The notes under the pieces: model-generated | Database searches by the model: none | What the model was told of the DNA's origin: nothing | Seen by the model: only the letters and a program-made list of their open reading frames with translations | Part shown: in pieces, positions 22,245 through 52,810 of the stretch | Layout of the letters: the number at the start of each line of letters is the position of its first letter | Numbering within the stretch: position 1 is the stretch's first letter | Position numbers and translations under genes: made by a program | From: Citrus sinensis | Taxonomy: Eukaryota; Streptophyta; Magnoliopsida; Sapindales; Rutaceae | Reading direction: 5' to 3' | NCBI RefSeq assembly: GCF_022201045.2 | Contig: NC_068559.1 | Location: 21,025,501-21,089,500 of the forward strand | DNA length: 64,000 nucleotides

Positions 22245-22276
22245 ATCATGGCAACCTAAGGACTTTTGGCTGCCAA

Positions 22277-25235: not shown

Positions 25236-25311
25236 CTCCCAATTTTTAGTAGTGTTAAAAATTTTAGTGATGAACTACAACAGCCCAACACCACAATACT
25301 AAAAATAATTT

Positions 25312-26882: not shown

Positions 26883-29800
26883 CACTACTAGAAAAATGGG
26901 CTACCATGACAGAGAATATATGTCATCCGACCCCTCTTATGACAGAGTTTCCATTTGTCATTGTAGCTCATCTCACAAATCTGTGACAACATTTTATCTA
27001 TCACATGTTCCCATGACAGTGTATATTTATCACACATGTGTCACGAACCAAGCGACGTCGTTTTGAAAGACTTTCGAGAATTAATTGGAAATTTTAGCGG
27101 GTTATTTAAATTATTTTGAATTTGATGGGTTTCTTCAAAAGCTGTCATATATCAATGATTCACATTCTCTGTCATGAGATTTAAGGTTTAAAAAAGAATA
27201 AAATTATTATTTTTAATTTTGAAATTATAATAATATTAATTATTATTATTATTTAAATTCCAGAATTTTGAAATAAAAACAACAAAAACCACATTTAAAA
27301 CTTGAATTAATTGAAATAAAAATTACATTCAAATTCATAAAAACTATCAAATACCAAATTGTGTGATGCGCTAAAAATTTCAATCACTTGAAACTTCCAA
27401 CAAATAGCATCACAAAATATATGGTGAATCAAATCCGTATACAATATCTAATAAATCCTTTACAATATCCAATCACCAACACATCACTAGAAAAACAATT
27501 AATCCATAAAAAAAACACTCTTAGTAAATTCCCGAAAGCCACCAACATCACCTGAAACATAGGTTACAATAAAATGAGTGCCAAAAAAATACATATTAAT
27601 ATATTGCCCACTTACAATTAATCAAATTCATAATAAAATTCATCAGTGTCTAATTGATTTAATCAGCTTTGATACTAAAGGGAAAATGAGAATAAACAAC
27701 CCAAGAGAAAATAGAAAATCACATTCGACAATTGACATAATGAAGCAGTAAGCTCACAAGCTGTAAAAGAGAAAAAGGGAAGAAAATAAAAATGATGATA
27801 AAGCAGTATAACCTGAATGCTTATGTAGCAGTGACAGTTGACTAGGTCTTCCTAAGAGTTGCTGGATTATAAAAGATTAAGTATAAACAAAATATTTTGC
27901 AACATAGTACATAGTAAAGAGAAATATAAAACCAAGTGCAATTAATGCCAAAGACGAGAAGAGAACTTTTAGTCTAGCCTTCTACAGATTTCAATTCTAA
28001 ATTTCTAGATGAATTTTTTTAAAGAGTAGTTTTTCAAGACTACAATTTAATTAATGCACAACATCTAACCTTCCATATATAATTAAATAAAATCCATCAA
28101 AATCAAGCTAATAAAAAGAAAGGAAAAAGTTCTAAAAATCCAAAAGATAAAGAGAAAATGTAGAAAATTCTGGAATCACCAGAATCTCCTCAATCTACCA
28201 ACTTTAATACCATGATTGTAGGCTTGCCAGTCTAAGCCCAAAGCGTAAAGCATAATCTAAAGTTTCCAGTGGGTGAAGAAATGATGATCTCTCAATCAAT
28301 TCAAAAGGCAAAGACATTGTCGAGCGCATAAATTGTTAGCTTCTCTTCTACCACATCAGATCCTTGATGCAAAATTCAATGGGCAAGTAAAGGGACACAT
28401 TGAGATAAATATTGGTCAATTTAAGAATTGAAAATGGAAGAAATAAGTTTAAATATTAGGACAGTCCAGACCAGGGGTTAACATGATAATGAAAAATTAT
28501 AAATCTCATGAGTTATATATATACAAAAACCAAAAAAAGATAGATAGGCTGGAATCTCTTGGTTCTTAGGAGCAAAAGTATCATTATTTATGGACCAGCT
28601 GTTTCAATTTTTCCAAAATTACATCTTCAATTTAGCTTTGCAAGACCATTCTTTGCTCGGCTAGTTTACCTAGTCACCAACTCTGATTGTCCATTTAGGA
28701 TTGAATCTATATACTCTTATATAATGTCTCTTCTGGAGGAAATAAGCAGAAAAAATATTCTAACTAGATGAGACCCTTTAGTGTGATGATGCTACGCAAT
28801 GGATGCTTTAAATGCATCCAATTTAATTTATGATGCTAAAGGACCACCGAATACTGAGGACTAGTAAGTGCAACATGGACCACAAACCAAAACATTTCCA
28901 ATTAACATAGCACAATATGTGACAAATCAAATTGAAAAAAAAAATCTTCCAAAAAGTTCAACATGTCAATTAAGAGAAAAATAATAGGATGCACATTAAT
29001 ACATCCATAAACAGCCTAGTTTCTCTATCAACAAGTTAGTCATAAGCACGAGTCAAAATAAATCATTTGACTGAAATGGTAGAAGACCAAGCAAATAAAT
29101 GCAAGTACCACCACACAAAGCATTTGCATTTCCAAAAGTGAATTTCATAAAGTTTTTGCAGAAGATATCTTTCTAATAAAAAAAATAAACACAAGTACCA
29201 GTCAATTGTAATGGGTTTGAGAACCACATATACCTCTAAATTTGATTAAAACCTTGAAGTCACAGAGGAAATTTTTCAGTGTGTTAACAACATTGATATT
29301 CAGCAAGGCTTTGTGTATGAGATTCAGCTTGTGCAGCTTGGGCAGTGACCTGTGCTAGGGCCTGCTAGTGCTTCATTCTAAAGGCTCCCTAGGTTGCATC
29401 CAATGAATCAGGGAAATTAGTAATAGATAAACGCAAAATTTGGATACCCAAGTAACATAATGCCAGTGAGGCATGACATACAAAGCAATATAGACAATAC
29501 AAGTTATCACTCACTCATTCAAGCTCTGGTCATCAAATTATAACCGGAAGCTAATACTCTTTCATTCTTGGTTGCTAATAAAGTTGTGACTAGATTGGAG
29601 AATTTCTCACATATTTGGCTTAAAGCTACATAAAGATCTCTATATCTTAGATATGGGAGTTAAAAGTGTTCACAGTTTACATGAAGACAATTGGATCTCC
29701 AACACTAGTAATACCAAGAGCTTTTCTTTCATTAATTGTTTGCATTAACCATATGCTTCATCTAAAAAGGGATGAAACTAAAATCAGGAAAGAAAAATGC

Positions 29801-35259: not shown

Positions 35260-35557
35260 TGTTAAGATTAAATGATGAGTCATATCATTGTTACTTAGGT
35301 GGAATGCTTAGTCAAGTGCTGAGCTGGATTTCTGTTTTGTAAAGTTGTTGAATACCCGCTAAGAGTTGGTTACGGTTTAGTTGTTTGTAGCTCATGCTTT
35401 GCATGCTTTAGAAGATTCTAGGCTTCACTATAAATATCATTGTATCAATTCAGATTAATAAGATTTTACAAAGCATCTTTTCTGTTTTCAACAATTCTCT
35501 CTCGTTTACATTTTCCTTTACTTTCCTGCCTACCAAACAGAGCTTCTACATTTGACA
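35260..35557 (+). repeat. 5' LTR of Copia element
   Basis: 298 bp, begins TGTTAAG and ends TTTGACA. A TATA-like 'ctataaatatc' near 35430 probably drives the genomic transcript. Confidence 0.95.
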
Positions 35558-35570
35558 TGGTATCAGAGCT
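35558..35570 (+). other. primer-binding site
   Basis: TGGTATCAGAGCT follows the 5' LTR directly and is the standard complement of the initiator methionine tRNA 3' end used by plant Copia elements. Confidence 0.9.
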
Positions 35571-35588
35571 AATTTTCAGATCAATCTA

Positions 35589-38500
35589 ATGGCCTTAACA
35601 AGTTCGAGTTCACAGCTAAATACTTCCTTTACCTTCACCACTCCAATTAAGCTAGATCGCGCTAATTACACGATCTGGAAGCAGCAAGTGCTTTCTTCAA
35701 TTCGTGGAAATGGATTGGAGAGCTATATTGATGGATCTAAACTCTGTCCCACTCAATATCTGTTGTCAGAGTCTGGAATAACTAGTTCTTCGAATGCTGA
35801 AGCTCAAGCACAAGAAAATCCAGAATATGGAGCATGGAAGCGTCAAGATCAACTACTGCTGAGCTGGATCATGTCCTCCATAAGTATCGATATACTAAGC
35901 CTTGTGGTAAACTCTCAAACCTCCTTTGAACTTTGGAAAAGTCTAGAAAAGCAATTTGGATCTGAGTCCATGGCAAAGAAGGTTCATCTGAAAATGCTTC
36001 TTAATAATTTGAGAAAAGGCTCTCTGTCAATGACTGAGTATTTTACTAAACTCAAAACAGTTACTGATGGTCTTGCATTAGCTGGTAGTCCTGTTAGTGA
36101 TATTGACTTCATAACTCATCTCATCACTGGATTAGATCATTCTTATTATCCGGTTGTTGTTTATGTCGAGGCCAATATGTTGAAAATGGATCTGAGTGAA
36201 GCATACTCTATGTTGCTAACACATGAGGCTAGGCTTGCGAATAATAAACTTAGTGAGAATAAGGAAATGAAAAGCAATTATGCAGCAAACATAGCTCAAT
36301 CTGGAAATTTTCAGAAGAAAGGGGGTAGCTCTAATAACTCTCAAGGGAACTGGAATCAAGGCAGGGGTAATAACTGGAATTTTAATGGTGGAAGGAGTGG
36401 TTTTACTGGAAATGGAAGAGGAAATAATCAAGGACAAGGCAGGGGTAATAACTGGAATGGTAACTTCAGAGGTAATCCTGGTGGCTTTAACAATGGATAT
36501 GGAAGAGGTGGTTTTGGTTCTGGTGGATTTGGAAGAGGAAGCTATAGCTCTGCAGCTGTTGTTTGTCAGATTTGCTTTCGATACAATCACACTGCTGCTG
36601 AGTGCAGAGATCGATTTAACAAGAACTTCATTCCAAACTATCCACCTCAAAACCTTTTTCCAGGACAACAGCAAGGACCAAGAGCAGCCTTTATGGCCAC
36701 TTCTGAGGGAGTAGCAGATCAAGGTTGGTACCTTGACAGTGGAGCTACTCACCATCTCACCAACTCAGTGCAGCATCTGAATGATGGTAAACTCTACTCT
36801 GGTTCTAATTCCTTGCTTATAGGAAATGGTCAGGGCTTACAAATCACACACATTGGCTATACTTGCTTTTACACCTCTTGTGGTTCATATCTTCATCTTC
36901 GAAACCTATTATGTGTTCCTAAAATCACCAAAAATTTAATAAGTGTTTCAAAACTTCTTGCTGATAATAACATCACTATTGAATTCATTTCTGATGCATG
37001 TTTTGTTAAGGACAAGGTGAAGGGAACACTACTTGCTCAGGGGATTGCTAAAGGTGGCTTATACAAGCTATTGTCATGTGAAGATTCTGTGCTATCTTTC
37101 AATATCTCAACTCTTAGTCTAAGTTCTATGATGTCAGTCTTATTTTCCAGTCCAAATAAAGAATGTCTTTCTTCTGTTGCGCTCAATAAAGAGTCTGTTA
37201 CAAGTGTAAACTCTGCAAACTTTCTACATAATAGACTTGGTCATCCAAGCAAGCATGTTATTCAAATCATTTTGAAGAATTCTTGTATGTCTTCCAGTTA
37301 CAATAATCAACACTCATTTGAATTTTGCAATGCTTGTCAACAAGGAAAGTTGCATAGGTTTCATTTCTCAACCTCTGAAATTAGAACTAAACAGCCATTA
37401 GAATTAATTCATACAGACCTTTGGGGACCTGCCTCAGAAATGTCTATGAATGGTTACAAGTATTATATTTCATTTGTTGATGACTATACTCGGTATAGTT
37501 GGATTTTTCCTCTTGTTCTTAAATCTGATGCTTTAGAGACTTTCAAAACCTTCAAACGATTGGTTAAAAAACAGTTCAATATGCCCATCAAAACCTTGCA
37601 ATCAGATATGGGAGGAGAGTTTAGAATTTTTCATTCTTTTCTTCAACAAGAGGGTATTCAATCTAGGTTCAGCTGTCCTCATTCACATCACCAAAATGGT
37701 GTTGTTGAAAGAAAACATAGACATATTGTTGAGACTGGTCTAACCCTTCTTGCCCAAGCCAACCTGCCCTTATCATTTTGGTGGGAAGCTTTTCATACTG
37801 CATCCTTTCTCATAAATAGAATGCCCACATCAATTCTGAATAATATGTCACCCTTTCAAAAGTTACACCATCAGTTACCAGATTATCAGTTTCTTAAAGT
37901 GTTTGGATGTGCCTGTTATCCCCTCCTCAAACATTATAATTCACATAAGCATGATTTCCATTCTAAAAAATGCTTATTTCTGGGGTACAGCCCTCTTCAC
38001 AAGGGTTATAAGTGTTTAGATAAATCAGGGAGACTCTATATAGCCATTCATGTTCAGTTCAATGAGTCTGAATTTCCTTATTCAGAAATGTTCTCTTCAT
38101 CCTCTGTGTCTCAGTCTTCTGTTGATCAATCAGTCTTCTCTTCACCACTTTGTACTCTGCATGACAGTAGCTCGTATCAGTCTCCTGCTGCATCACCTTG
38201 TTCAGCTGTGCTGCCAACACCAGGTTCTTTAAATTCAAGACAACATCATGAAGCTTCTTCTTCATCAACATCAGTCCCTCACCAAACACCTCACATATCT
38301 CCTTTGCCTCAACCACCAATTAATCAACATTTCATGACCACAAGAGCCAAATCAGGCATTTTCAAACCAAAAACTTTCCTTACTGTCACACAAAGTTATG
38401 AACCAAAGAGTGTTAAAGAGGCTTTAGCTGATCTCAAGTGGCACATGGCCATGAAAGAAGAGTTTACTGCTCTGGAGAAGAATCAAACCTGGACATTGGT

Positions 38501-39929
38501 ACCAGCAGACACAGCAACAAAAATTGTTGGTAATAAATGGGTATTTCGGGTGAAGTACAATCCAGATGGGAGTGTTTCAAAGTTTAAAGCCAGGTTAGTT
38601 GCAAAGGGATTTCATCAGACTTATGGCATAGACTTCTTTGAAACCTTTAGCCCTGTTGTTAAGCCTTGTACTGTCAGAATTATCTTAAGCCTTGCTGTCA
38701 TGCATCACTGGTCAGTTAGACAGTTAGATATCAACAATGCTTTTCTAAATGGAGAGCTAACAGAGGATGTATATATGCATCAGCCTGCAAGATTCATTAA
38801 TTCACAATATCCTTCTCATGTGTGCAAATTAAATAAAGCCTTATATGGTCTCAAACAGGCTCCAAGAGCCTGGTATGACAGACTCAAAAACTCTCTCTTA
38901 CAGTGGGGTTTTCAAGCTTCAAAGTCTTATATTTCATTATTTTTTCAACACAATGAGAGGGATATAGTAATGGTTCTCATTTATGTAGATGATATACTTG
39001 TTACGGGCTCAAATACAGTTTTCATAGAAAAGGTTATCAAGCAACTTGGTTCTGAATTTGCACTCAAAGATCTGGGGGATTTCAGCTATTTTCTTGGTCT
39101 AGAAGTTACACCATCAGCTGAAGGGTTGCATTTATCTCAGACAAAATACATTTGTGATATTCTAAGCAAAACTAATATGCTTGGTAGCAAAAGTTGCAAT
39201 ACTCCTATAAGTGTTTCTGAGAAGCTTCAAAAAGACTTAGGCAATCCATTTGAGAATCCATCTCTTTATAGAAGTGTTATTGGTTCACTTCAATATGTAA
39301 CTTTAACAAGACCTGAGATAGCATTTACAGTTAGTAAACTTAGTCAATTCTTAGCAGCTCCTACTGTTCTGCATTGGCAAGCCTGCAAAAGGCTGCTCAG
39401 GTATCTTCAAGGCACAGCTCCTTTTGGCCTCCAGTTTCATCATTCTGGTTCACTCAACTTGACAGCTTACTCAGATGCAGATTGGGGTTCTGATCCAGAT
39501 GACAGAAGGTCAATGGGAGGTTATTGTATGTTTCTTGGCTCAAACCTTGTAAGCTGGTCATCAAAGAAGCAAACTCTTGTTTCTCGATCTACTGCCGAAT
39601 CAGAGTATCGAGCACTTGCTTCAGCCACCTCTGAAGTGTTGTGGATAACCTATCTGCTGAAAGAGTTGAAAGTGCAGCTGGACACATCTCCTCTTTTATA
39701 CTGTGACAATAAGAGTGCTGAGGCTTTAGCTAGTAATCCAAAATACCATACAAGAACTAAGCATATCGAGCTGGACCTTCATTTCATCCGAGAGCATGTG
39801 GCTAAGAAAGAATTCACAATTCAGCATGTATCAAGCTCAGACCTACTTGCTGATATCTTTACTAAGCCATTATCATTTGATCATTTTGCTTACATGAGAT
39901 CTAAGCTCAATGTCTCTCCAAGACCTTGA
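35589..39929 (+). CDS. Copia gag-pol polyprotein (1446 aa)
   Basis: Single frame with all domains in Copia order. Gag spans about 1-300, followed by a Gly/Asn-rich stretch and a zinc knuckle CxxCx4Hx4C near 324-337. Protease has DSGATHH (D382). Integrase has an HHCC zinc-binding region (about 547-585) and catalytic D607, D671 and E706 (approximate). Reverse transcriptase spans about 980-1220 with YVDD at 1132-1135, and RNase H has YSDADWG (about 1294) and DNKSAE (about 1372). No stop or frameshift is present, so the element may be autonomous. One unusual residue is SKSYISLF just before YVDD, where relatives usually have Asp or Asn rather than Tyr. The frame ends at the polypurine tract. Confidence 0.97.
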   Translation: MALTSSSSQLNTSFTFTTPIKLDRANYTIWKQQVLSSIRGNGLESYIDGSKLCPTQYLLSESGITSSSNAEAQAQENPEYGAWKRQDQLLLSWIMSSISIDILSLVVNSQTSFELWKSLEKQFGSESMAKKVHLKMLLNNLRKGSLSMTEYFTKLKTVTDGLALAGSPVSDIDFITHLITGLDHSYYPVVVYVEANMLKMDLSEAYSMLLTHEARLANNKLSENKEMKSNYAANIAQSGNFQKKGGSSNNSQGNWNQGRGNNWNFNGGRSGFTGNGRGNNQGQGRGNNWNGNFRGNPGGFNNGYGRGGFGSGGFGRGSYSSAAVVCQICFRYNHTAAECRDRFNKNFIPNYPPQNLFPGQQQGPRAAFMATSEGVADQGWYLDSGATHHLTNSVQHLNDGKLYSGSNSLLIGNGQGLQITHIGYTCFYTSCGSYLHLRNLLCVPKITKNLISVSKLLADNNITIEFISDACFVKDKVKGTLLAQGIAKGGLYKLLSCEDSVLSFNISTLSLSSMMSVLFSSPNKECLSSVALNKESVTSVNSANFLHNRLGHPSKHVIQIILKNSCMSSSYNNQHSFEFCNACQQGKLHRFHFSTSEIRTKQPLELIHTDLWGPASEMSMNGYKYYISFVDDYTRYSWIFPLVLKSDALETFKTFKRLVKKQFNMPIKTLQSDMGGEFRIFHSFLQQEGIQSRFSCPHSHHQNGVVERKHRHIVETGLTLLAQANLPLSFWWEAFHTASFLINRMPTSILNNMSPFQKLHHQLPDYQFLKVFGCACYPLLKHYNSHKHDFHSKKCLFLGYSPLHKGYKCLDKSGRLYIAIHVQFNESEFPYSEMFSSSSVSQSSVDQSVFSSPLCTLHDSSSYQSPAASPCSAVLPTPGSLNSRQHHEASSSSTSVPHQTPHISPLPQPPINQHFMTTRAKSGIFKPKTFLTVTQSYEPKSVKEALADLKWHMAMKEEFTALEKNQTWTLVPADTATKIVGNKWVFRVKYNPDGSVSKFKARLVAKGFHQTYGIDFFETFSPVVKPCTVRIILSLAVMHHWSVRQLDINNAFLNGELTEDVYMHQPARFINSQYPSHVCKLNKALYGLKQAPRAWYDRLKNSLLQWGFQASKSYISLFFQHNERDIVMVLIYVDDILVTGSNTVFIEKVIKQLGSEFALKDLGDFSYFLGLEVTPSAEGLHLSQTKYICDILSKTNMLGSKSCNTPISVSEKLQKDLGNPFENPSLYRSVIGSLQYVTLTRPEIAFTVSKLSQFLAAPTVLHWQACKRLLRYLQGTAPFGLQFHHSGSLNLTAYSDADWGSDPDDRRSMGGYCMFLGSNLVSWSSKKQTLVSRSTAESEYRALASATSEVLWITYLLKELKVQLDTSPLLYCDNKSAEALASNPKYHTRTKHIELDLHFIREHVAKKEFTIQHVSSSDLLADIFTKPLSFDHFAYMRSKLNVSPRP

Positions 39930-39930
39930 G

Positions 39931-39942
39931 CTTAAGGGGGAA
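39931..39942 (+). other. polypurine tract
   Basis: AAGGGGGAA within 'cttaagggggaa' immediately precedes the 3' LTR and overlaps the end of the coding frame by nearly nothing. It is the plus-strand priming site of the element. Confidence 0.9.
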
Positions 39943-40240
39943 TGTTAAGATTAAATGATGAGTCAGATCATTGTTGCTTAGGTGGAATGCTTAGTCAAGT
40001 GCTGAGCTGGATTTCTGTTTTGTAAAGTTGTTGAATTCCCGCTAAGAGTTGGTTACGGTTTAGTTGTTTGTAGCTCATGCTTTGCATGCTTTAGAAGATT
40101 CTAGGCTTCACTATAAATATCATTGTATCAATTCAGATTAATAAGATTTTACAAAGCATCTTTTCTGTTTTCAACAATTCTCTCTCGTTTACATTTTCCT
40201 TTACTTTCCTGCCTACCAAACAGAGCTTCTACATTTGACA
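39943..40240 (+). repeat. 3' LTR of Copia element
   Basis: 298 bp, identical to the 5' LTR except at about three positions, for example 'gagtcagatcattgttgct' against 'gagtcatatcattgttact'. Confidence 0.95.
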
Positions 40241-40245
40241 AGGCT

Positions 40246-41562
40246 TCCTTTCAATTAATTAGTCTGCTGTTTCTCAGTTGTTATTGCACATATTATGCAT
40301 TATGCAGTGCACTCCATGAAACTTTAACAATTAGGTTTCATTAAAAAGAAGTAAATTTGAAAATGATCTCTTCATAAAGATCAAAAGATTACAAATTTAT
40401 GTTGAGTTTTATTTGTAGAATTGTAGTAATATTTATAATACTTTATTGTCATTGATATAAATTAAACAACAATACACGTGGCGTTAAAAAAAATAATAAT
40501 AATGGATTTTCAATTGAGATAGATTTTCATTTAAGGAAGAACAAGGGGAAAAAAAACCAACTGGAACAAGCCAATAATGGAGGATTTGGTAATAAAACCA
40601 TGATTAAGACAAAATAAATATTAGAGCTAGAATCCGCTAATAATTATATAGATGATAAGGATTTGTTGGGTATATAGTAATAGATGAAATTTCAAAATTT
40701 AATAATAGATTTATTAAGCATTATGATGGGTTCAAATAGACCTCATCGTAAAAAAAATATAAATCATATTAAACTCTTATAAATCTAAAACTCATTACAC
40801 CTACACACTACGCAACCACAGCAACAATTGGACTTTTTTTTTTCTTCTTACAATTTACAAACACTTATGAAAATTGATGCCGGTGCTCTCCGTTCATTTC
40901 TTGTGATAATAAAAGGATTCTGAATATTTACACTTCTGAATACAAAATAATATTCGTTAGCAAGAATTTACTACAGTTTGAAATTCACCTCATACTTTTG
41001 TTAAAGAATCTCTTGATTGATTTCCTTGGACACATTCCTGAGCATTACCGGCATGAATGTAAGGAAACGACAATTAAGACATTCAAATCCTCATAGTCTC
41101 GAGAAACCTTTTGACGAAATGGAAACATAAAAGGTTGAAAGGTAGATGAAACAGAAGTTTCTGAATAACAAAATTTATTGAGTAAGTTTGAATTAATAAA
41201 ATTAGGGTTTTGAACCCCTTTATATAATATCCTTAAATATCGTAAATTTATCAAAATAGACAAATTCAAAATATTATTTGATAATAAGATTATCCTAGTT
41301 AAACTAAGAAAAGCAAAACAAACGGTGTCCGATTCCAATATTTAAAAAAAAAGATAAAATCCTAAAAGAATCATGAAAAATAAGAAAATATCTTAAAATT
41401 AAAAAATGAATAGAAAATAAGTAGAATTTCTAGCTCGACCATGTAATAGAAGGGCCAAGTTTTAAAATTGTATATTATACATCGAAAATGAACCCTTATA
41501 GTCCAAGTTATACCCTTTGAAAGTTACCTCGCTCATAATATACTACCAACCTACATTATCTT
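40246..41562. other. intergenic, T segment copy 2
   Basis: Collinear with 19777-21090. No gene. Similarity to unit 1 ends near 41562, the left inversion breakpoint proposed in the findings. Confidence 0.6.
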
Positions 41563-41761
41563 TTAGGCTGCAGTAGGAATGGACACTGCCGCTGAATGTC
41601 CAGAACAATTAGCTTGACTAAACTCCACATTTTTCTCACATGTTTCCATTAGGTAATGTTCGGCGCGAAATCTGATAAGAATGTAACACATCCCGCGCTT
41701 GAGGCTGATGGGCTGAATTGGGTTATTGGGCCTAATATCGATTTTCATATGTAGGCTTCAG

Positions 41762-41974
41762 TTGCTGTCAGCTTGGATTCAAGAGTTCGCTGAGATCCGA
41801 ATGATCAAAGAAAGCTGACCAATACCATGAAAAACTAGTCACCAAATATCGTACCATGCGAGAGCCCTATCGCCCAGCCTAAATGACAAATTTAGTGTGT
41901 GTGGGGAATTTTGAGCCTTGAGTTCTTGAGCTCTTGTTTCGACTACAAGTGGATAATTAAACCAAAAAGGTTGT
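41762..41974 (+). pseudogene. 3' fragment of tau-class GST
   Basis: Matches the last third of exon 2 and the 3' untranslated region of GST3 (52047-52180 and beyond, reverse strand): 'ctgtcagcttgga', 'caagagttcgctgag', 'catgaaaaactagtcaccaa', 'cccagcctaaatgacaaatt'. It has a TGG to TGA change in the ESW part and a short deletion before the stop. No upstream exon is present. It is a relic and shows another GST once lay here. Confidence 0.88.
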
Positions 41975-42993
41975 TCTCGTGTACATTGCATTTGCTTTTA
42001 TGCAAATAATGGAGCTTATTTGGAATTTGATAAAGTTTGTAATTGTGTTAGCTCTATGGTTAGGAAAAAAATTTGCCTTTTTCCATTCAATAGATACATT
42101 GTGTAATTGTGTGTTTCGTGCCTTCATTGTCTCTTTGATTACATATGAATTTTAGTGGTTCTACAATTTTTCTTCTTTACGTTTGAAGAGTGGACAAGAG
42201 TTGATTCGGAATCGATTAAGGTCGAACAACAAAACAAAAATTTGGGGTGGTTATTCAAGAATCCAAAATTAACCCAATTAAAATTGATGCTATTTAGATA
42301 TTGCTGTTATTTTGTTTTAATTAAGATTTTGTTAATTATTTATACAAATAACTTCTGATTTCTCTTATGTTTTAGTTACTTTGACTTTCTCGCAAACCGA
42401 CCCAACGCCTTATTTTATTAATGATAATGTAAAGGGTTGAGTTGGATTATAAAGATGGGACAAAATTCAACCCCAACTCGATAAATGATCCGGGATTGTT
42501 TAGATCGTGGGCTCTGAGTTATTTTAGCCCATCCCAAACTGAATGGTCTAGAAGACAAGAGCCTTAATGGGTCCTACTAGCTTTTGTATTAAAAATATAA
42601 AATCATCAAATTCAAACCTGCTCTGTTCTCCACTCTATTCATCTATCCACACTTTTTGGCTTTGTGAGTTGTGAGTGCTGACTTTTGACATAACTCGGCT
42701 CTGATCGTCAGTTGGGAGCCAACATATTAACATAAAATATTAAATATCTATGAAGCGCAAGGTTTGTACTTTCTTTTATCTTTGGCAATTGACATGAAAG
42801 AAATGGAAAAAAAAAATTTATATACGTCAGTTCTTACATCATTTCCCATCTAAATCAATACTACAAAAAATTAAAAATTGATGCTGAAGCCATTTTACAT
42901 TTGAAAAATAAGGGATAATTTGAGTCTATTTAAGCTAATTTTAAGAAGGTCAAAAACGAAAAGTACAAATATAGATATAACAAGGATCAGCTA
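41975..42993. other. GST1 upstream region
   Basis: No gene. Bases 42510-42760 match, in reverse orientation, the GST2 upstream region at about 49440-49690 (for example 'aacataaaatat', 'tcggctctgat'), so the two promoters share ancestry. Confidence 0.6.
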
Positions 42994-43875
42994 ATGGCGG
43001 AGGTGAAGCTTCTGAAGACATGGTCTAGTCACTTTGCTTTGAGGGTTGTTTGGGCATTAAAGCTGAAGGGTGTTCAATTTGATTCCATAGAAGAAGATCT
43101 CTCCAACAAAAGCCCTTTACTTCTTCAGCACAATCCTGTTTACAAAAAGATTCCTGTGCTTGTACACAACGGCAGAGCAATCTCAGAATCTCTGGTAATT
43201 CTTGAATATATTGATGAGACTTGGAAGCAATACCCTTTGCTCCCTGATGATCCTTATGAGAGTGCCAGGGCTCGATTTTGGGCCAAATTCAGCGATGATA
43301 AGGTAAGAATAATTTCTCTTGAAATTAGTTAACAATTGATCTTACACTCCAGGACCTATTTTCAAAAAGTTGCTTTCTAGCTCGACACATGAGTTTGAAT
43401 CATGATTTTATTTGTTGGTTGCATGTAAAACAGATGTATAAAAGATTTAAGGATGTACAAAAGATTCAAAGGAATGTAATTTGGCATATCTCTTCGATTT
43501 CAATATATATCACAGGTTTTTCCATCAATATGGGGTGTTTTCATCAAACAAGGGAAAGAACAAGAGGAAGCTTTTGCTCAGGTTTTTGAGAATTTTAGTT
43601 TTTTAGAAGAAGAGTTAAAGGGAAAGAAATTTTTTGGGGGAGAGAAGATCGGATATGCAGATCTTGCATTGGGTTGGATTGCTGAGAGGGTCTTTGAATT
43701 GGAAGAGATTGGTGTGAAAGTTATAGAGAAGGAGAAATTTCCATTGGTGTCAGCATGGATGCAAGAGTTTCTTAAGGTTCCAGTAATCAAAGAAAGCTTG
43801 CCACCTCACGAGAAACTAGTCACCAAAATGCGTGGCATCAGAGAGAAATATCTTGGAGCTGCACATCCTGAATGA
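42994..43875 (+). CDS. tau-class glutathione S-transferase (GST1)
   Basis: Two exons, 42994-43302 and 43516-43875, with a 213-bp GT-AG intron, giving 222 residues. The thioredoxin-like N domain ends at the conserved FSDDK splice position and the alpha-helical C domain follows. It has a glutathione-site SES motif ([12 protein letters not shown]) and KIPVLVHNG. The catalytic motif is unusual: tau GSTs have W.SPF, and GST2 and GST3 here keep SSPF, but GST1 reads SSHF. The next GSH-site motif is NGRA rather than NGKP. Frames and splice sites are intact, so it is called a gene, but activity may be altered. Predicted role: cytosolic conjugation of glutathione to electrophiles. Strand is opposite to the other GSTs. 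Confidence 0.9.
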
Positions 43876-44492
43876 ACTGAATTAGCAGCTTCTTGTTGTG
43901 AATTGAATTAGCAGCTTCTTGCTGTGATTCAGGTTTATGTAAAAAATAAAATTGATGGAAATATGCGTGCTCTTGATAAAATACAGCAATAAGATTTCTG
44001 AGCACAATAGAGGTATCTATTGTCAGTGAACATTATCGACTTGGTGAACTATGAAATTGTTTTGTTTCTGATACATGGTTGTTCTTATTGCTGCCGTATT
44101 GCTATTGTATTTACTAGTTTCGATCAATTGATCACAGGGTCTTTGAATTTTACTAGTTCTAAGCTTTGTGCTTATTTGCTTCAACGGAGAGATAATGGTC
44201 TAGTAAAGGCAGTTGAATTTGACCTTGTAATTAGTGCCCTTTTTTCTCAATGCTCATTAAATCTGAAAATCAAATAAGAAGTTCATAATGATAAATGACC
44301 TACAAAGAGAAACATGCAAGCCTAGGACAATAGAGAGGAGAAATCGAAAACTACAAATAATGAGGAAGAGAACTTATTGTATTATCACACATCAAATGAA
44401 AATTCTGAAACATAAGAACACAAATAACAGCAACACAAAAACATAAGGATAACAACATAAACATAAAAACTAAAATACTTCACAATTAATCA
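43876..44492. other. GST1/AP-B2 convergent 3' region
   Basis: The 3' flanks of GST1 (+) and AP-B2 (-) converge here. A 26-base direct repeat, 'tgaattagcagcttcttg' plus neighbours, occurs twice at about 43877-43928. No gene. Confidence 0.6.
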
Positions 44493-45773
44493 CTACTTAG
44501 AGCAATCAGTTGGTTTGAAAGACACAGTCTTTGCCTTTGTATCATATCCCACCAAGAAGTTCGCCTGAGCCAAGTTGCCATAAATTGATTGCCCTTCCAT
44601 TCCTTTAAACGTGAAGCACACACTTGTGTCACTTGTCCTGATAAAGGTGTTCTCAGGACTCAACACCACATCTGCGCCGCTGAAATGTACTGTGATTTGT
44701 GGAGCCTTAAAGTCAGAACTATAAGGGTAGCAAAGATCAAGGACCCCCTCAGGATCACTAATGGGATCAGCTTTGATCAAATCGGACACTGCTGAAGTCA
44801 ATTTTGAGACAATATCCGGAGGCAAAAATGTCAATGTAGTTCCGGAATCAATAATGATGTTGCCCTCTGAAGCATCATCAAAATGAATTTTCTTTTTGCC
44901 GACACTGATTGATTCCAATGTAAGAAAGTAAAATGTGTCAGGATCCTTGGCAACCAAAGGAGTAGTAACAACCCCAGTTCCAGAAACAACACCATTGCTT
45001 CCGAAATTGATTTTGCTGGAGCTTTCAGAAGATAGAAACGGAACCAGACAGTATGAGAATTTGCCACCAATTGAAGAACCCATTTGAGTAACAAGCGAAA
45101 CAGAGCCGCCTCCAAGGCCAACAATGCCAGTTGCATTTTCATTGAAGGTTCCATCATCGTTATGCCCACAACCAAAGATTATATTGCGCAAAGCTACAGG
45201 CCTGCCATTTGTCGAACCTAATGTGACAGTCTCAACAGCAAGATTACCATTTGAGAAAGATCTATCGCCATACGTGGCCGAGTATTCACAAGTTTCTTCC
45301 GTTGAGCAGGAAGTTCTCTCATAAGCAGTGCATTGCCTTGAGTCACAAGAAAGATCTTTGTAAGTCGAGGACTGTTCAGGATCAAAGAACGGAGCTGCTT
45401 GCTTGTAACACTCAGTGCAAGGCTTGCACTGAGTCCATATAAGATCACTTCCAGTATCAGCAATGGCTAAAATCTCAACAGGTGGAGTTCCTATGGATAT
45501 ATTCATAACATACTCGCCAAGGGCTGAGATTATGTCAGCTTGGGCAGTGTTTGGTGTGATAATAGCTGGATCAAAATGGCTGACACGATTAACAGATCGT
45601 TTCAAGGCCTTTGTGACTCTTTGGTGGTAAGTTTCATCAGGACTGTAAAAGGGTGATTTAGGCGCGTCACGACGGATTAGATCAAGGCTAAAGCCTCCCT
45701 TCGCTTCTGTTATGGAGAGACTAGACAGACAAAGAATTAAGAATGAAATTGCTGAAGCATTGACAGTTGCCAT
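44493..45773 (-). CDS. CDR1-like aspartic protease (AP-B2), intact
   Basis: Intronless, 426 residues. It has a signal peptide (1 to about 24), a propeptide with a DAPKSPFY block, first active-site Asp D106 in ADTGSD, a nepenthesin-type Cys insert (about 116-162), a flap region ATYGDRSFSNG, second active-site Asp D309 in IDSGTT and a C-terminal FKPTDCSK. It is the only full-length member of the AP-B subgroup here; AP-B1 (21679) and the stub at 47956 are its broken copies. A TATA box lies at 45823-45830. It differs clearly from AP-A1 and AP-A2, so the two subgroups predate the segmental duplication. Predicted secreted protease; the defence role is by analogy with Arabidopsis CDR1. Confidence 0.93.
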   Translation of the reverse strand: MATVNASAISFLILCLSSLSITEAKGGFSLDLIRRDAPKSPFYSPDETYHQRVTKALKRSVNRVSHFDPAIITPNTAQADIISALGEYVMNISIGTPPVEILAIADTGSDLIWTQCKPCTECYKQAAPFFDPEQSSTYKDLSCDSRQCTAYERTSCSTEETCEYSATYGDRSFSNGNLAVETVTLGSTNGRPVALRNIIFGCGHNDDGTFNENATGIVGLGGGSVSLVTQMGSSIGGKFSYCLVPFLSSESSSKINFGSNGVVSGTGVVTTPLVAKDPDTFYFLTLESISVGKKKIHFDDASEGNIIIDSGTTLTFLPPDIVSKLTSAVSDLIKADPISDPEGVLDLCYPYSSDFKAPQITVHFSGADVVLSPENTFIRTSDTSVCFTFKGMEGQSIYGNLAQANFLVGYDTKAKTVSFKPTDCSK

Positions 45774-46360
45774 GACTGATTAAGATGTTAATTTGTAATT
45801 AAGAAGAGTAATTTTGGGGGTGTTTATATAGGAGGAAATGGTGTTAAAGATGAATTAGAAATGAGAAATTTAGATAGGGAAAATAAGGAAGGTTCAACGT
45901 ATATAATTTAGTTTCCTTATATGCAATGATTTTTTAAAAAATTACCAACTCATGATTTCCATTATTGCATGGATTTTGTAGGATTTATTGGCTGTATAAT
46001 CTTCAAGTGAATCGTGAAAGAATGTAATTTAGAGATGCATGTAAAAATATTAACGTCGCAGTTTGCAAAGGTTAAGGCCGGATACAAATACAATTCACAC
46101 ACATCTTTTCATTTCTTTGTACGAAACTAATTAAAAGAATCTGATCGTCATAATTATTAATAAGATATCAAATACATTCCATATTAAATCATTTTATTAA
46201 CAAAATTTTTAAACAAGTACATTTCTTCGACTCATATGCTGAAAATGTTATTTAAAAAAAAATCATGGAAAGTACAGATAGTCGCAAGTTGTGAACATTA
46301 AATTCGCAATCTTTAATTAATAGTGTAAGGTAACGGTGATATCAAAGATCATGCGGTCCT
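45774..46360 (-). promoter_or_regulatory. AP-B2 promoter region
   Basis: Reverse-complement match to 21110-21678 upstream of AP-B1, including TATATAAA at 45823-45830 (rc). Similarity to unit 1 ends near 46360 at 'gatatcaaagatcatg', the proposed right inversion breakpoint. Confidence 0.7.
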
Positions 46361-46424
46361 ATCACCTGTTACAACTTGTTACATATTTTTTAATAGAGTG
46401 TAAATTACAGCAGCTGTAACTTAG

Positions 46425-46790
46425 CAATTATCTTATAAAGACGATAAGGATATTGGGCGTATTAGTGGGATTATAGAGTAATAGATAAAATTACAAACTT
46501 TGATAATGAATTGACTAAATATATGGATTTATTAAGTATTATGGTAAGTTTAAATAGCTTCACCCTAAAAAAATAAATCTGATTAAACCTTTATATTCTC
46601 TCCATGTAACGCTCTTTACACTTCCACACCAAAAAAATAAATTTGAAATTCACCGCATACTTTTGTTAGAGAATCTCTTGATTGATTTGCCTCGCCACAT
46701 TACTGAGCATTACCGGCATGAATTTAAGGAAAAGATAATTAAAACATTCTAAATCCTCACACTTCCAAGAAACTTGTGGTATTACGTTGT
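46425..46790 (+). repeat. T segment copy 3 (partial)
   Basis: Matches 20150-20620 and 40630-41100 ('gacgataaggatat', 'cattaccggcatgaa'). It leads into AP-B promoter sequence (46800-46892), as in unit 1, so T segment plus AP-B is a repeated module. Confidence 0.7.
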
Positions 46791-46892
46791 ATGATTAATT
46801 AAAAATATTGTTAATAAATGATTTAACAATATTTATGACGATTGGATTCTTTTAATTAGTTGGTACAAATAAATGAAAAGACGTGTGTAAAT

Positions 46893-47732
46893 TAGGGATG
46901 GCAATGGGGAGGAGAGGGGAGGGGACCAATCTCCCCGTACCCATCCCTAATATTTTGCGCATGTCCCCATCCCCGTCCCCTCCCCATCCCCGTTAGAATT
47001 GCTTTAGAGAATCCACATTCTCTCCCCGAATAATAACAAAGGATTCCCGAGGGTCTCCGATTCTCAAATAATTAATATATTTTTTGCTTTCGTTTTTGAG
47101 TTAATTATATTAAATAAAAAATTCAAATAAAAGTAAAGTTCGAAATATATCTTGCATTAACATTGTTCAATTACAAAAGTCACATGCAAAATACAAATTA
47201 TCAAAATAATTATCTTTGTCAATCTTCATAATCCTATAATAAAAAGAGAAAGAATTTACTTTTATATCGATAATAAAATAAATGAAATAAATGTAGATAC
47301 TTAATTAATATTTTTAATAAAATAAAATAAAAATAAAAATTAAAACAAAATTTTTGGTCTAATAGAATCTACCCGGCCTTTTTAATGTCCTAAATAAAAA
47401 TTTAAAATTTTAATTAGTTAATTGGGCCTAAAAGTTTAATAATATAAATGTTTTGATGTTTTTTATTTTTACCAATATTTACAATTTTATAATATAATTC
47501 AAATTTTATTATTTATTTACTAGTAATTTTAAAAATTAAAATTAAAATGGGGGAAATGGGGAGGGGATGAGGATTCCATCTCATTCTCTTCCCTTTCCCG
47601 AATAAAAAACTGGGTAAAAAATTTTCTCTATCTCTTTCCTGAATAAGAAATCGGGTATAAAATTATCTCCGTACTCTCTCCAAATGGAGAAAATCTCCGA
47701 GGATACCCCTGTGGGAATTTTTGCCATCCCTA
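46893..47732. mobile_element. hAT nonautonomous element (840 bp)
   Basis: Perfect 12-base inverted termini, TAGGGATGGCAA and TTGCCATCCCTA, with a perfect 8-bp target duplication GTGTAAAT (46885-46892 and 47733-47740): the hAT signature. The interior has GGGGA-rich and TCCCC-rich subterminal parts and no transposase. It interrupts AP-B promoter sequence that is continuous at about 21350 and 46095, 216 bp before the stub's ATG. Confidence 0.95.
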
Positions 47733-47955
47733 GTGTAAATTGTATCCGGACTTTGGCCTTTGCAAATTTCAACGTTAATATTGCATTCTTTTATGATTCA
47801 CTTGAAGATTATGCAGCCAACAAATCCTACAAAATCCATGCAGTCATGGAAATAATGGATAGTTAATTTTTGGAAAAAAAAAATCATTGTATAAACGCCC
47901 CAAAATTACCCTTTTTGATACAAATTAACATCTCTCATTTGTGTCATTCTCAGTC

Positions 47956-48047
47956 ATGGCAACTGTTACTGCTTTAGCAATTTCATTCTTAATTGTTCGT
48001 CCCTGTAGTGTCTCCATAACAGAAGCTACGGGAAGGCTTTAGCCTTC
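47956..48047 (+). pseudogene. 5' stub of CDR1-like protease (AP-B3)
   Basis: Start codon and signal-peptide region of an AP-B copy, then loss of homology at about 48047 ('ggctttagcctt'). Indels shift the frame so that a stop occurs at 48040-48042 after 28 codons. AP-B promoter sequence precedes it, split by the hAT element. The rest of the gene is missing and GST2 3' sequence follows within about 250 bp. If transcribed it would give only a hydrophobic 28-residue peptide. Confidence 0.9.
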
Positions 48048-48312
48048 GCCAATTTCTTTCAGCTGACGCAAATAAGCACTGCGTTGTGCAACGCTTAGAA
48101 CTTTTATCAAACACCTTGTAGTCAATTGATCCAAGCTCGTTAACAACAATAATAGAGCAATAAATAGCCTAATACAAACTAACGTGTACAAACCGATATG
48201 ATATGAAAGTGATAACAGTTACTTTTTTTTCAGTTATACAAATTCAGTTGGTTTTACACAACTAATCTTCTCATGCCATGAATTACAACAAGAGGCACTG
48301 AATTCATTTAGG

Positions 48313-49085
48313 CTATGCAGCTCCAATAAATTTCTCTCTGATGCCGCGTATTTTCGTGACTAGTTTCTCATGAGGGGGCAAGCTTTCTTTGATGATTGGA
48401 ACCTTAACAAACTCTTGCATCCAAGCTGACACCAGTGGAAATTTCTCCTCCTCCACAATTTTCACACCAATAATCTCTTCCAATACACAGACCCTTTCAG
48501 CAATCCAACCCAATGCAAGATCTGCAAACCCGATCTTCTCTCCCCCAAAAAATTTCTTTCCCTTCAACTCTTCTTCTAAAAATTTCAAATTCTCAAAAAC
48601 TTGATCAAAAGCTTCCTCTCGTTCTTTCCCTTGTTTAATGAAAACACCCCACATTGATGGAGAAACCTGCATAACATATATTGAAATCCAAGAGAGATCT
48701 TGAATTCATCGGTTTGAATAAACTCATTTGCATCAACTGAATTTTAATAAATTTCAAGAGAAATTACTCTTACCTTATCATCGCTGAATTTGGCCCAAAA
48801 GCGAGCCCTGGCTCTATCATAAGGACCATCAGGGAGCAAAGGGTATTGCCTCCAAGTCTCGTCGACATATTCAAGAATTACGAGAGATTCTGAGATCGGT
48901 TTCCCGTTGTGTACAAGCACAGGAATCTTTTTGTGAACAGGATTGTACTGAAGAAGTAAAGGGCTTTTGTTGGAGAGATCCTCTTCTATTGAATCGAATT
49001 GAACACCCTTCAGCTTTAATGCCCAAACAACCCTCAAAGCAAAGGGGCTTGACCACGTCATCAAAAGCTTCACTTCTTCTGCCAT
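48313..49085 (-). CDS. tau-class glutathione S-transferase (GST2)
   Basis: Two exons, 49085-48774 and 48666-48313, with a 107-bp GT-AG intron, giving 221 residues. The catalytic motif TWSSPF has the catalytic Ser at about residue 13, followed by NGKPISES and ILEYVDETW glutathione-site motifs. The C domain contains [23 protein letters not shown] at 49085 is chosen as start because GST3 begins identically; an in-frame ATG ten codons upstream (49115) would add an unconserved extension. It is closest to GST1; the pair share promoter sequence. Predicted cytosolic detoxification enzyme. Confidence 0.93.
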
Positions 49086-49324
49086 CAGATCTTGTTTTGC
49101 ACCTCTCAGAGTCACAGCTGAGCCTCGCTATCTATAATTCATACGTGTATTGCTTGTTATTGACCTTCCTAAATATTAGCTTACATATGGGTGGATTTAG
49201 ATTAAAATTATCCCCTGTTTTGCATCATTCCACTATTCTTCCAGTATTGATTTAGTGGGGAAATGATGTAAGAGATGACGTGTATATAATTTCCTAGAGG
49301 CGTCTCTTTCTTCTTTTCGTGCCA

Positions 49325-49425
49325 AAGTTGAAAGGGCTTCTCACAATAATAGTATCCGATCCTACCAGTAGTACTGTTAGTGTGAGAGGGCCGTAAGTTA
49401 CGTTTAAAAATGTGTACACTATCTT
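49325..49425. mobile_element. partial copy of the 122-bp MITE
   Basis: 'atagtatccgatcc', 'cagtagtactgtt', 'gtgtgagagggc' and 'gtaagttacgttta' match the element at 12297-12418. The left arm is shortened. It lies about 240-340 bp upstream of the GST2 start, within its promoter region. Confidence 0.7.
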
Positions 49426-52046
49426 TCAAGAACGGGATATGTCACTTATGCCTCATAGATATTTTATGTTAATGGGCTCCAACATATAATCAATCAGAGC
49501 CGAATGATTGTATATTTAATTGTGGCACAAGGTGGAAAAATGTGGGCAGATGAATGTGCTGGTTGCAGAGGACATTTGATTTGATGATTTTACTACAAAA
49601 GTTAAATGGGACCAACTTTACAATTAGTCCACAATATTAGGTTCTTGCCTTCATTGACAATCAGTTTGGAGTGGGCTGAAAAAACTCAGAGCCTTTATTC
49701 TAAATTTATCCTCGTTAGAAATTAAAAAAGTACTTATTTTTCTATTTTTTTCTTTTCTCTCTCATGTGCACAATTTCTCTCTCTCTCCTTCAACAATTAC
49801 CATTTTACCCATTTTCATGACCACCAAATCCATCATAATATTGAATTACATTTATGAGAGCATTGATTTGAATGGAATCCAAAATAAGAACTCAGTGCTG
49901 AATTCCAAATCTATTTTATATGTCATTGAAATCCTATTTTACTTTTTGATTGTGAATCAAAGTATCGAAACTTTTACGCGTCCGTACTATAAGCATAGCC
50001 ATAGCTTAAAGGTGGCTGATGAACCAAACTTTGCTTCATTTTGAATGTAATTAAAAAAATGAACCATTAGGTGTCATTATCCTACCCTGATGGTCAAAAA
50101 CAATTAGAGACTGGCTGATGGTAGAGGCTTTGCTAAAGGGGTGGTGACTTATTAATGACTGAGAAAAAAAAAATCTCAATATATGATTGAAAAATCTCAA
50201 TTGCGATTTGGCCAGGTGTTGTGCATAGTTGATTTGAGGATTTGATATGTTTTTATTCATTAAAAACTTTGTTCCCTGTGTTAAACAAAGAAAAATATTA
50301 AAAAATAATTAAAAATAAATGTTGTTCAATATTGGTAATGGATTTTGTTGTGATGAAGGTGAGTATGGCGGTGATTCCTAAAAGAGAGAGAGTGGATGAG
50401 AGAAAAAAATGCAAAAGTTAAAAAAATAAATATATTTTTAATTTTTAATGAAGATGATTTTAGAAATAATGAAGTAAATTGAAAAAAGAAGGTTGCCGAA
50501 ATAAATAAAGGACTCTTTAATTTCTCATATCTATATAACCCGACTCAGGCCTTTTTAAATTGTGGACTATGAGAAGAATGGGTGGGGTTAATTTAAGACA
50601 AGTGACTTGTATAAATCTTCCAATATTCGGTAAAAATGTAAAAATAAAATGTACAAAATAAATGAGATTAATTTTATCCCTCTCTAGACTTTCTTACTCA
50701 TAAATTTCCGTCTAAGGATTTTTGATGACGTAGCCAACACTTCACTAGTGTTTTGTGAAGCTTTCATTAGCAAAATCATCCTAGTCGAGTCCAAAGAAAA
50801 AAATTCATCTTATTCCTTGTTCAAGAAAAAGACAATAATTGCAAATTGCAATCGAATAAAAGGAGTTTATCCTAACGTCTTTCATACGGAACAAGATAAA
50901 AAGTAAAGTGAAGAACACGAAATGCAATATATTAAAGACAAAAAATAGTGCATTAGAATATATGTTTCTTTTTATCTTTTAACTTTATCTTCATTTTAAT
51001 TTTAGGATCACAATTCTCTCTTAATTTGATCATATCCTGAGTAAATAATTCAATTACTGATTGATAGTTAATAAAGAAAAAATAACAAAAGTTAAATCTT
51101 ACCCATATATTATTATTAAAAGACACACGGCAGAAAATTTTAAAAAACTCAATAAAAATCATATCAAGAAACAATCATGTTCCTTAATTTTGTATAGACG
51201 TCCACGTGTGAGCACCATTGACTTATCCTATTCCAAGTCCGCCATTGACTTATCCTTTCCAAGTCCGCGTAGATGAAGGGCCTGAAAACTTTTCTACTTG
51301 ACAATTGGGACTGAATTTTTCGCCAAATAATCCACGTTTCTTTCTCAGTTCCTTTTCAATTATTCATTAGTAATTAAAAAAGAAAAATTGAAAAAGAGGC
51401 TTTTGTGGATAAATAAGAGCAAAGAAATTAGAGAAAGCCAAGACACTTTGAACATATCAAGAAATAGAAGTGTTATCAACGGTGACATATCATAACCACA
51501 AATTTAATGAATTTTCAGGCGCTTTTAAATAATTTTGGTAAGAATAAAAGTTTAACTAAAATAAAAATAATAATAATAGTGGTTTGGTGAGATAGAAAAA
51601 TTATTGAAATAGCTTTTGTTTTTGGGTTCTTATATGAGCAACCCAGAATGGTTTTGGTTCGACCCTAGTCCTCTCGTGCGGACCACTCCAAACCAACTCA
51701 TCAAGTCCACTATTTAGCATAGCCGGGAGAGGTAAAGAAGACTTGTCATAACCAACTAAAATTCATTTGTATAACAAAGACAATGAAGGCATGAAAATAC
51801 ATCATGTATGTATTGAATGGGAAAAGGGAAAAAGGCAAATTTTATTCCAATCTTTAGCGAATGAGAAACAGAACATTCATGAAGCTAACACAATTACATT
51901 CCTTATCAAATTCCAGCAATTAAGCTCCGTTATTTGCATAAAAACATACACAGCTAACATCTACAACCAGACAACCTTGTTGGTTTAGCCTCTTGCAGTC
52001 GAAACAAGAGCGCAAGGCTCAAAATCCCCCACACATACTAAATTTG
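49426..52046. other. GST2 upstream and GST2-GST3 spacer
   Basis: Bases 49440-49690 are homologous to the GST1 upstream region (inverted). Further on it is AT-rich with no credible gene. A short tandem duplication, 'ccattgacttatcc' with 'ttccaagtccg', occurs twice at about 51213-51268. Bases 51980-52046 include the GST3 3' untranslated region. Confidence 0.5.
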
Positions 52047-52810
52047 TCATTTAGGCTGGGCAGCAGCTGCAACATAAGGCTCTCGGATGGCACGAAATTT
52101 GGTGACTAGTTTTTCATGAGGTGGCCAGCTTTCTTTGATTACAGGGGCCTCAGCAAACTCTTGCATCCAAGCTGACAGCAGTGGAAACCGCTCCTTTTCT
52201 ATCAGTTTCACACCAATTACCTCTTCAAATACGCCGATCAAATTAGCAAGCCAGCCCAATGCAAGATCTGCCAATCCAATCTTCTCTCCACCAAAAAATC
52301 TCTTTCCCTTCAGCTCTTCTTCTAAGAATTTCAGAGTCTCAATTGCTAGGCCAATAGCTTCCTCTTGTTCTTTCCCTTGCTTAATGAAAGCATTCCATAT
52401 TGATACCAAAACCTACATCATTGAGAACAATATTGTTATGTCGCATCAATTTGTTCAAAGAATTTGATTAGAATAAACTTAAGAAAATCGATACTGACCT
52501 TATCTTCACCAAATTTAGCCCAGAAGCGAGCCCTGGCTCTTTCGTAAGGATCTTCAGGAAGCAAAGGATTTTGCTTCCAAGTCTCATCAACATATTCAAG
52601 AATTACTAGTGATTCTGAGATTGGTTTCCCGTTGTGTATGAGTACAGGAACTTTTTTATAGACAGGATTAGATTGAAGAAGTAAAGGGCTTTTGTTAGAG
52701 AGATCTTCATCTATGAAATCAAATTGAACGCCCTTGAGTTTCAATATCCAAAAAGCTCTCAAACCAAAGGGGCTTGACCACGTCTTCAAAAGCTTCACTT
52801 CTTCTGCCAT
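52047..52810 (-). CDS. tau-class glutathione S-transferase (GST3)
   Basis: Two exons, 52810-52499 and 52412-52047, with an 86-bp GT-AG intron, giving 225 residues. The catalytic region is TWSSPFGLR with Ser near 13, and NGKPISES and ILEYVDETW are conserved. The C domain has [17 protein letters not shown] and ends in AAAAQPK. The start is MAEEV, with a TATA-like CTATAAATAG (rc of 52851-52860) about 40 bp upstream. It is more diverged from GST1/GST2 than they are from each other. The relic at 41762-41974 is its nearest match. Predicted role: cytosolic glutathione conjugation. Confidence 0.94.

Follow-up and report, generated by a model that had tools for sequence, protein, structure and literature searches.

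Evidence for a 4.8-kb inversion in a tandem aspartic protease and glutathione S-transferase gene cluster of Citrus sinensis

Introduction

Why does one unit of a tandem gene array stop at a point where its sister copy runs on, and why is the missing part found further along on the opposite strand? The question is raised by a cluster of CDR1-like aspartic protease (AP) and glutathione S-transferase (GST) genes in Citrus sinensis. The stretch analysed, here called the window, is 64,000 nucleotides long (C4:21025501-21089500), and genome searches covered 299.7 Mb in 11 contigs. An initial annotation had traced two anomalies, the break in unit 2 and the strand of GST1 and a GST relic, to one inversion of positions 41563-46360 that also carries AP-B2. 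The results described here point to a probable in-place inversion of 4.8 kb by two breaks and end joining, accompanied by a distal deletion. It is most likely a real rearrangement, and of an ordinary kind for a plant tandem gene cluster.

A reciprocal cut in unit 2

40241 to 41111, plus strand: T segment proper of unit 2, with 88.7% identity to unit 1 at 837 sites; its last bases are the 5' target-site copy CCTTT (41107-41111)
20643 to 22288, plus strand: unit 1 comparator, consisting of a repeat resembling a long terminal repeat (LTR; 20643-21095), AP-B upstream DNA and the broken gene AP-B1 (21679-22288)
41753 to 42174, plus strand: GST relic, the 3' part of exon 2 (frames 41753-41879) with downstream DNA, paralogous to GST3 (51735-52180)
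42994 to 43875, plus strand: GST1, intact, 222 aa, exons 42994-43302 and 43516-43875 with a GT-AG intron
44493 to 45773, minus strand: AP-B2, an intact CDR1-like aspartic protease of 426 aa with Pfam domains TAXi_N, TAXi_C and Asp
45774 to 46349, minus strand: AP-B2 upstream region, continuous with T in unit 1

Self-comparison of the window identifies units 1 and 2 as diverged tandem copies. On the same strand, unit 1 positions 19772-21100 correspond to 40241-41563 (82.8% identity), and on the opposite strand 21088-22244 correspond to 46356-45176 (89.9%). Both matched pieces are neighbours in unit 1, where they overlap by 13 bp, and unit 1 is unbroken across the point at which unit 2 is cut. 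The earlier observation that unit 2 stops where unit 1 continues is borne out by this comparison and by the junction alignment, with the stop at 41563. When positions 41563-46360 were reversed by script, flipped positions 40241-42747 aligned with 19772-22244 as a single stretch of 2,551 bp (85.6%, expect value (E) 0.0), and flipping thus rejoins T, the AP-B promoter and AP-B2 as had been proposed. Taken together, the continuity of unit 1 and the alignment obtained after flipping identify the segment ends as complementary halves of one ancestral sequence, as expected of an in-place inversion. The missing AP-B upstream part is indeed inverted, but the proposed end at 46360 needs correction: positions 46350-46360 align with a dispersed repeat and not with AP-B upstream DNA, which places the segment at approximately 41564-46349.

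The same flip accounts for the strand of the GST sequences. GST1 and the relic lie on the plus strand, whereas the other GST matches in the window, at 48.3-49.1, 52.0-52.8, 56.8-57.4 and 58.2-58.5 kb, all lie on the minus strand, and reversal brings the two into line with them. One event behind both anomalies, as originally suggested, agrees with these results.

A third unit as internal comparator

46433 to 46790, plus strand: unit 3, comprising T' and the empty site, free of the LTR, at which T' meets AP upstream DNA
46893 to 47732, plus strand: unit 3 insertion of 840 bp with ends TAGGGATGGCAA...TTGCCATCCCTA and an 8-bp target duplication GTGTAAAT, read by eye
47956 to 48046, plus strand: unit 3 AP-B start relic
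48304 to 49085, minus strand: GST2, intact reading, two exons
52047 to 52810, minus strand: GST3, intact reading, two exons, paralog of the relic within the inversion

Further support, not used in the initial annotation, is provided by a partial unit 3 that spans 46472-49693 and includes the end of GST3 at 51735-52180. Comparison of positions 46361-49500 with flipped unit 2 gave 12 matches, all but one of which follow one order and one orientation; the exception (48352-48434 to the relic) reflects GST paralogy. The ordered matches cover T (46472-46595 and 46642-46773), AP upstream DNA (46799-46893 and 47740-47893), the AP start (47890-48046), the spacer between AP and GST (48049-48151), GST2 (48281-49076) and the DNA upstream of GST2 (49243-49292). 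Further matches in the same order lie at 49639-49693, corresponding to DNA past GST1, and at 51735-52180, where the end of GST3 corresponds to the GST relic; the relic at 41753-42174 is accordingly the unit 2 counterpart of GST3. Nine of the 11 ordered matches fall inside the segment and are reversed in its present orientation, so that collinearity of units 2 and 3 is seen after flipping only. Unit 3 therefore serves as an independent outgroup copy with the unflipped order, although it is a paralogous unit and not another species.

Two features of unit 3 may be noted in their own right. The insertion at 46893-47732, which carries 12-bp terminal inverted repeats (TAGGGATGGCAA) and splits the unit 3 AP promoter, is presumably hAT-like in view of its repeat and target duplication lengths. 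In addition, T' at 46450-46587 includes a piece of another dispersed repeat, as six of the 25 genome matches to the query 46361-46800 lie outside the window at query positions 90-227.

Repeats at the junctions

41112 to 41558, plus strand: LTR-like dispersed repeat, 447 bp, TG...TA, with the 3' target-site copy TCTTT at 41559-41563
41563 to 41564, no strand: left (proximal) breakpoint, TCTTT / TAGGCTG
41564 to 41745, plus strand: TE-A, the outer part of a DNA-transposon terminal inverted repeat of ~590 bp, truncated at the breakpoint, its outer end abutting the GST relic
46343 to 46350, no strand: right (distal) breakpoint, exact position ambiguous within CAAAGAT/C
46350 to 46438, plus strand: TE-B, a repeat resembling a miniature inverted-repeat transposable element (MITE), without its first part (~35-40 bp, by eye)

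The proximal break coincides with the edge of a repeat. The unit 1 copy of the LTR-like repeat (20643-21095) runs from TGATG to CATCA between CCTTT and TCTTT, and many of 20 aligned copies end near ...TACATCA. Genome matches to a T query fell almost entirely in this part, 44 of 47 within the last ~450 bp, a lower bound since 40 of 297 candidates were scored. The TG..CA ends and the flanks suggest that the repeat is a solo LTR between target copies of 5 bp. In unit 3 it is absent (AAGAAACTTGTGGTATTACG versus AAGAAAC-CTTT-GATATTACC), and this LTR-free site makes the adjacency of T and AP-B ancestral. The LTR also explains the word ATCTTT, found at 41558-41563 and, reversed, at 46344-46349 in the junction alignment. 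Since the LTR ends at 41558 and the TCTTT copy follows, ATCTTT is the last A of the LTR plus the target-site copy; the word is present at both ends as first reported, but it cannot be taken as the marker of a clean flip.

On the inner side of the same breakpoint, TE-A is cut ~190 bp inside its terminus, and related copies run on past 41563. It has 14 genome matches, the window's own among them. A complete-looking relative (L027:996-6399) is bounded by terminal inverted repeats ~590 bp long (92.6%) and contains an open reading frame (ORF) with DUF4371; its ends display no clear target duplication. As the outer end of TE-A abuts the relic within exon 2, TE-A was probably inserted into a GST3-like gene. 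Past the left breakpoint, ten TE-A copies from eight loci agree with one another at 0.81, whereas agreement of the window is 0.55 with these copies and 0.74 with unit 1. The distal side behaves similarly: 14 of 25 genome matches to the query 46361-46800 fall in its first 78 bases (TE-B), and past the breakpoint the mutual agreement of eight TE-B copies is 0.63, that of the window 0.51 with these copies and 0.925 with unit 1. L020, among the eight, is without the family's upstream part. At a separate locus, L009 (C9:18722100-18728203), three TE-A terminal-repeat copies in both orientations are packed into 3.1 kb, which suggests nesting or rearrangement.

A rival explanation is an orientation error in assembly, in which a 4.8-kb contig was placed the wrong way round; such errors do occur with small contigs. 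The window contains no N, however, and the breakpoints carry no inverted repeat, the longest exact inverted match between them being 6 bp within 30 bp, 8 bp within 100 bp and 10 bp within 300 bp. Moreover, undoing a pure orientation error should give natural junctions, while flipping the segment back leaves TE-A and TE-B incomplete. An artefact is accordingly improbable.

Loss of DNA at the distal side

TE-A and TE-B are both truncated at the ancestral distal junction, and the inversion was therefore not balanced. When 41564 is rejoined with 46350, neither transposon becomes whole and the GST3-like gene is still without its 5' part, which indicates that distal sequence was lost, probably including that 5' part. 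From the GST3 counterpart by itself a loss of ~630 bp (52180 to 52810) follows, to which the remainder of TE-A is added. Loss and flip are best regarded as one event, as an earlier loss would require a later break at the same spot. A search of the window for the inner part of TE-A, with 520 bp from three copies, gave short or weak matches only, the best at 27187-27286 (E 1.5e-5), with none at 46350-46460. When 14 stretches of 10 kb with AP or GST paralogs on C4, C3 and C8 were compared with flipped positions 40000-49500, no junction of T with AP was found among them; besides AP and GST matches, they contained a single T' piece of 92 bp (46471-46562, L032).

Mechanism and alternatives

The ancestral array would have consisted of tandem units in the order T, AP-B, GST, GST, the second of which may have suffered two double-strand breaks. 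The proximal break would have fallen at the 3' target-site copy of the solo LTR beside AP-B2, and the distal one in the transposon-rich DNA that follows the GST3-like gene at its 3' end. The reversed and end-joined stretch of 4.8 kb would have carried AP-B2, GST1 and, together with a piece of TE-A, the 3' end of that gene; the distal losses would have comprised the gene's 5' part, the remaining TE-A and the first part of the MITE TE-B.

Recombination between inverted repeats was considered and rejected, as no such repeats lie at the breakpoints. Seven reverse matches were obtained between 38501-44500 and 43401-49400 (E up to 1), two of them 22-24 bp long and the others due to GST paralogs with their flanks, and none falls at the breakpoints; the inverted pair formed by GST1 and GST2 (43000-43904 and 49076-48281) lies away from them. 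That transposons drove the inversion, by alternative (reversed-ends) transposition or by recombination between inverted transposon copies, is suggested by the three repeats that touch the breakpoints (LTR end, TE-A and TE-B). Inversions by alternative transposition have, at each of their junctions, transposon termini along with a matching target duplication (PMC8225341), whereas TE-A and TE-B are cut internally and TCTTT is the old target copy of an LTR that unit 1 carries at this site too. Alternative transposition was rejected on these grounds. The LTR, TE-A and TE-B also form no inverted pair across the segment (E up to 1), and a transposon-driven origin as a whole is very improbable, the least likely of the explanations weighed. 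With inverted repeats and the marks of transposition both absent, we infer breakage followed by end joining that used little homology or none. The 6-bp word could stem from slightly staggered breaks or from partial microhomology with the two repeats.

A further explanation is that replication template switching or inverted duplication placed a reversed copy of the stretch from AP-B2 to GST1 at this position and that the original was then deleted. Complex events can involve loss of DNA like that on the distal side, and a minute duplication might account for the 6-bp word shared by the two ends. Searches recovered no second copy, though: the next best full-length genome match to AP-B2 is at 58%, and above 74% a GST2 exon 1 query recovered only GST1 (88%) and GST3 (79%). 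The proximal cut is also reciprocal to within a few bases, and two events would be required where one suffices. Such a sequence of events is unlikely, though less so than an assembly error.

Several observations weigh against an inversion by simple breakage and joining. The microhomology is short, ATCTTT being the only word at both ends. In tests for longer partial homology, for five of nine TE-B copies compared with the unit 1 boundary, random stretches of the window reached or exceeded the score in 11, 62, 1987, 826 and 269 of 2,000 trials, and for four TE-A copies in 244, 815, 285 and 14 of 2,000, the best alignments being out of junction register. The window's likeness to each family past the breakpoints exceeded 300 of 300 shuffles (0.553 versus 0.467 for TE-A; 0.512 versus 0.458 for TE-B), and so did the unit 1 counterparts (0.458 versus 0.425; 0.515 versus 0.464), in a test whose standard deviation is too small because the copies are related. 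A control stretch (40900-40979) did not rise above its shuffles, 106 of 300 reaching its score; some partial likeness or effect of composition thus seems to be involved, which speaks against a perfectly sharp switch. Identity with free end gaps was likewise raised between window and family (0.62 for TE-A and 0.55 for TE-B, with random means of 0.42 and 0.40), a measure dropped as unreliable; random maxima of 300 reached 0.67 and 0.62, and its TE-B set counted 12 pieces, some of them second matches in one locus. A second run was dropped as well (window 0.624 versus shuffled 0.414; unit 1 control 0.138, below its own shuffles at 0.228). Finally, queries 41563-41762 and 46361-46800 recovered no further example of the ancestral distal junction from the genome; leaving aside the window's own sequence and the T copies in units 1 and 2, their matches are repeat-like pieces. 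The distal loss is thus deduced from the truncated families.

Gene order in other plants adds a last point of this kind. Among the best 120 matches for each query, tags of CDR1-like AP, GST and kelch genes (the latter here at 61174-62346) lie close together with GST in the middle in Jatropha (JCGZ_02613, 02611, 02610), Craigia (Cryun08bG0052600, 0052900, 0053000), Diplodiscus (Ditri06bG0114700, 0114400, 0114300) and Tetracentron (HHK36_028315, 028309, 028302). The order is mixed, however, and in Reevesia (Repub06b) and Craigia (Cryun16b) kelch lies between AP and GST. These clusters hold the same families as the citrus array, in which one unit is flipped, but they are known from locus tags alone; as tags carry no orientation, the likeness is a hint and was not counted as evidence.

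Comparison with known inversions

Inversions 2h and 2q of Drosophila mojavensis resemble the citrus case in having two breaks and a reversed segment (PMC3355041). They carry kilobase inverted duplications, described there as the mark of staggered breaks, whereas the citrus segment has at most 6 bp at both ends together with distal loss. The same source reports duplicates of GstD1 at the two breakpoints of inversion 2c. Maize Ac/fAc inversions by alternative transposition (PMC8225341) are similar in that they occur in a plant, have transposon sequence at the junctions and give a gene new upstream DNA; unlike them, the citrus junctions lack a transposon terminus with a matching target duplication. 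The citrus locus is a readable case of the reshuffling of a tandem cluster: its breakpoints bring together the edge of an LTR, a DNA transposon whose terminal inverted repeats are long and a MITE, and paralogous units within the array act as outgroup. It opens no new mechanistic question. Among the listed titles on small citrus inversions (10 of 74) none concerns this locus, and no paper was found that joins a citrus inversion with tandem aspartic protease and glutathione S-transferase genes.

Age and consequences

Kimura two-parameter (K2P) distances between units 1 and 2 are 0.124 for T, 0.235 for the LTR-like repeat and 0.090 for AP-B upstream DNA, and 0.055 and 0.034 for the coding regions of AP-B and AP-A. 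The reversal is taken to be younger than the split of these units. In Citrus x aurantiifolia, the counterparts of GST1 and GST3 (AB3S75_035254 and 035256) have one tag between them, which, as no more than a hint, fits the unflipped order (GST2 alone), the present order placing two genes there (AP-B2 and GST2); an unannotated gene would explain the single tag equally well. It is conceivable, if doubtful, that the inversion is recent and polymorphic in Citrus, so that AP-B2, the only intact AP-B found here, lies beside different upstream DNA depending on lineage.

The coding regions of AP-B2 and GST1 are intact, and the two genes are convergent both before and after the flip. Of its original upstream sequence AP-B2 retains ~576 bp, and it no longer adjoins the LTR and T. 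Judged from this arrangement, any effect of the flip on AP-B2 is likely to be regulatory. The flip would also have turned GST1 and GST2 from direct into inverted repeats and thereby altered how the array can rearrange later. The two (43000-43904 and 48281-49076) are 87-91% identical and now form an inverted repeat around AP-B2 that could permit further inversions.

Genes of the segment

The motifs DTGS and DSGT are characteristic of A1 aspartic proteases. Both occur in the translation of AP-B2, which has the features of a CDR1-like A1 aspartic protease and whose named relatives are called CDR1. Among the best 120 of 2,278 matches, its closest named relatives (63-66%) are from Melia, Dipteronia, Xanthoceras, Mangifera and Pistacia, and also Carica and Jatropha; P0001, from an ENA contig of 1,850 bases, differs from it at three residues. 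AP-B1 is broken (frames 21679, 22035 and 22184), and unit 3 retains the AP-B start only. GST1 has GST_N and GST_C domains in a one-intron model and is 98.2% identical to Citrus x aurantiifolia P0241; some relatives among its best 120 matches are named U7-like or tau 7, which makes GST1 a candidate tau-type enzyme. GST2 has no mismatches to Citrus sinensis P0242, and a single 2-residue gap is removed by an alternative splice choice.

Other features of the window

The AP/GST region extends over 13579-58502, and the kelch gene at 61174-62346 is of the F-box/kelch type (SKIP25-like). Two Hibiscus syriacus kelch proteins (P0167 and P0225) are named 'Glutathione S-transferase TAU 8'. Immediately before the T segment of unit 2, a copia-type LTR retrotransposon (35260-40240) has one ORF of 1,446 aa and a 5-bp target duplication, AGGCT; its LTR pair is 98.7% alike (K2P 0.0134), and its empty site is found in unit 1 at 19756-19795. 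Self-complementary, palindrome-like stretches at 2592-3048, 9860-10646 and 24574-25236 are 71-84% identical to their own reverse complements. Tandem repeats at 12997-13347, just before AP-A1, have shifts of 66, 99, 198 and 231 bp that suggest a 33-bp period. Decayed AP copies lie on both sides of the window (C4:20999087-21000379, 21015077-21015622 and 21217870-21218756), on the minus strand and thus opposite to AP-A1, AP-A2 and AP-B1.

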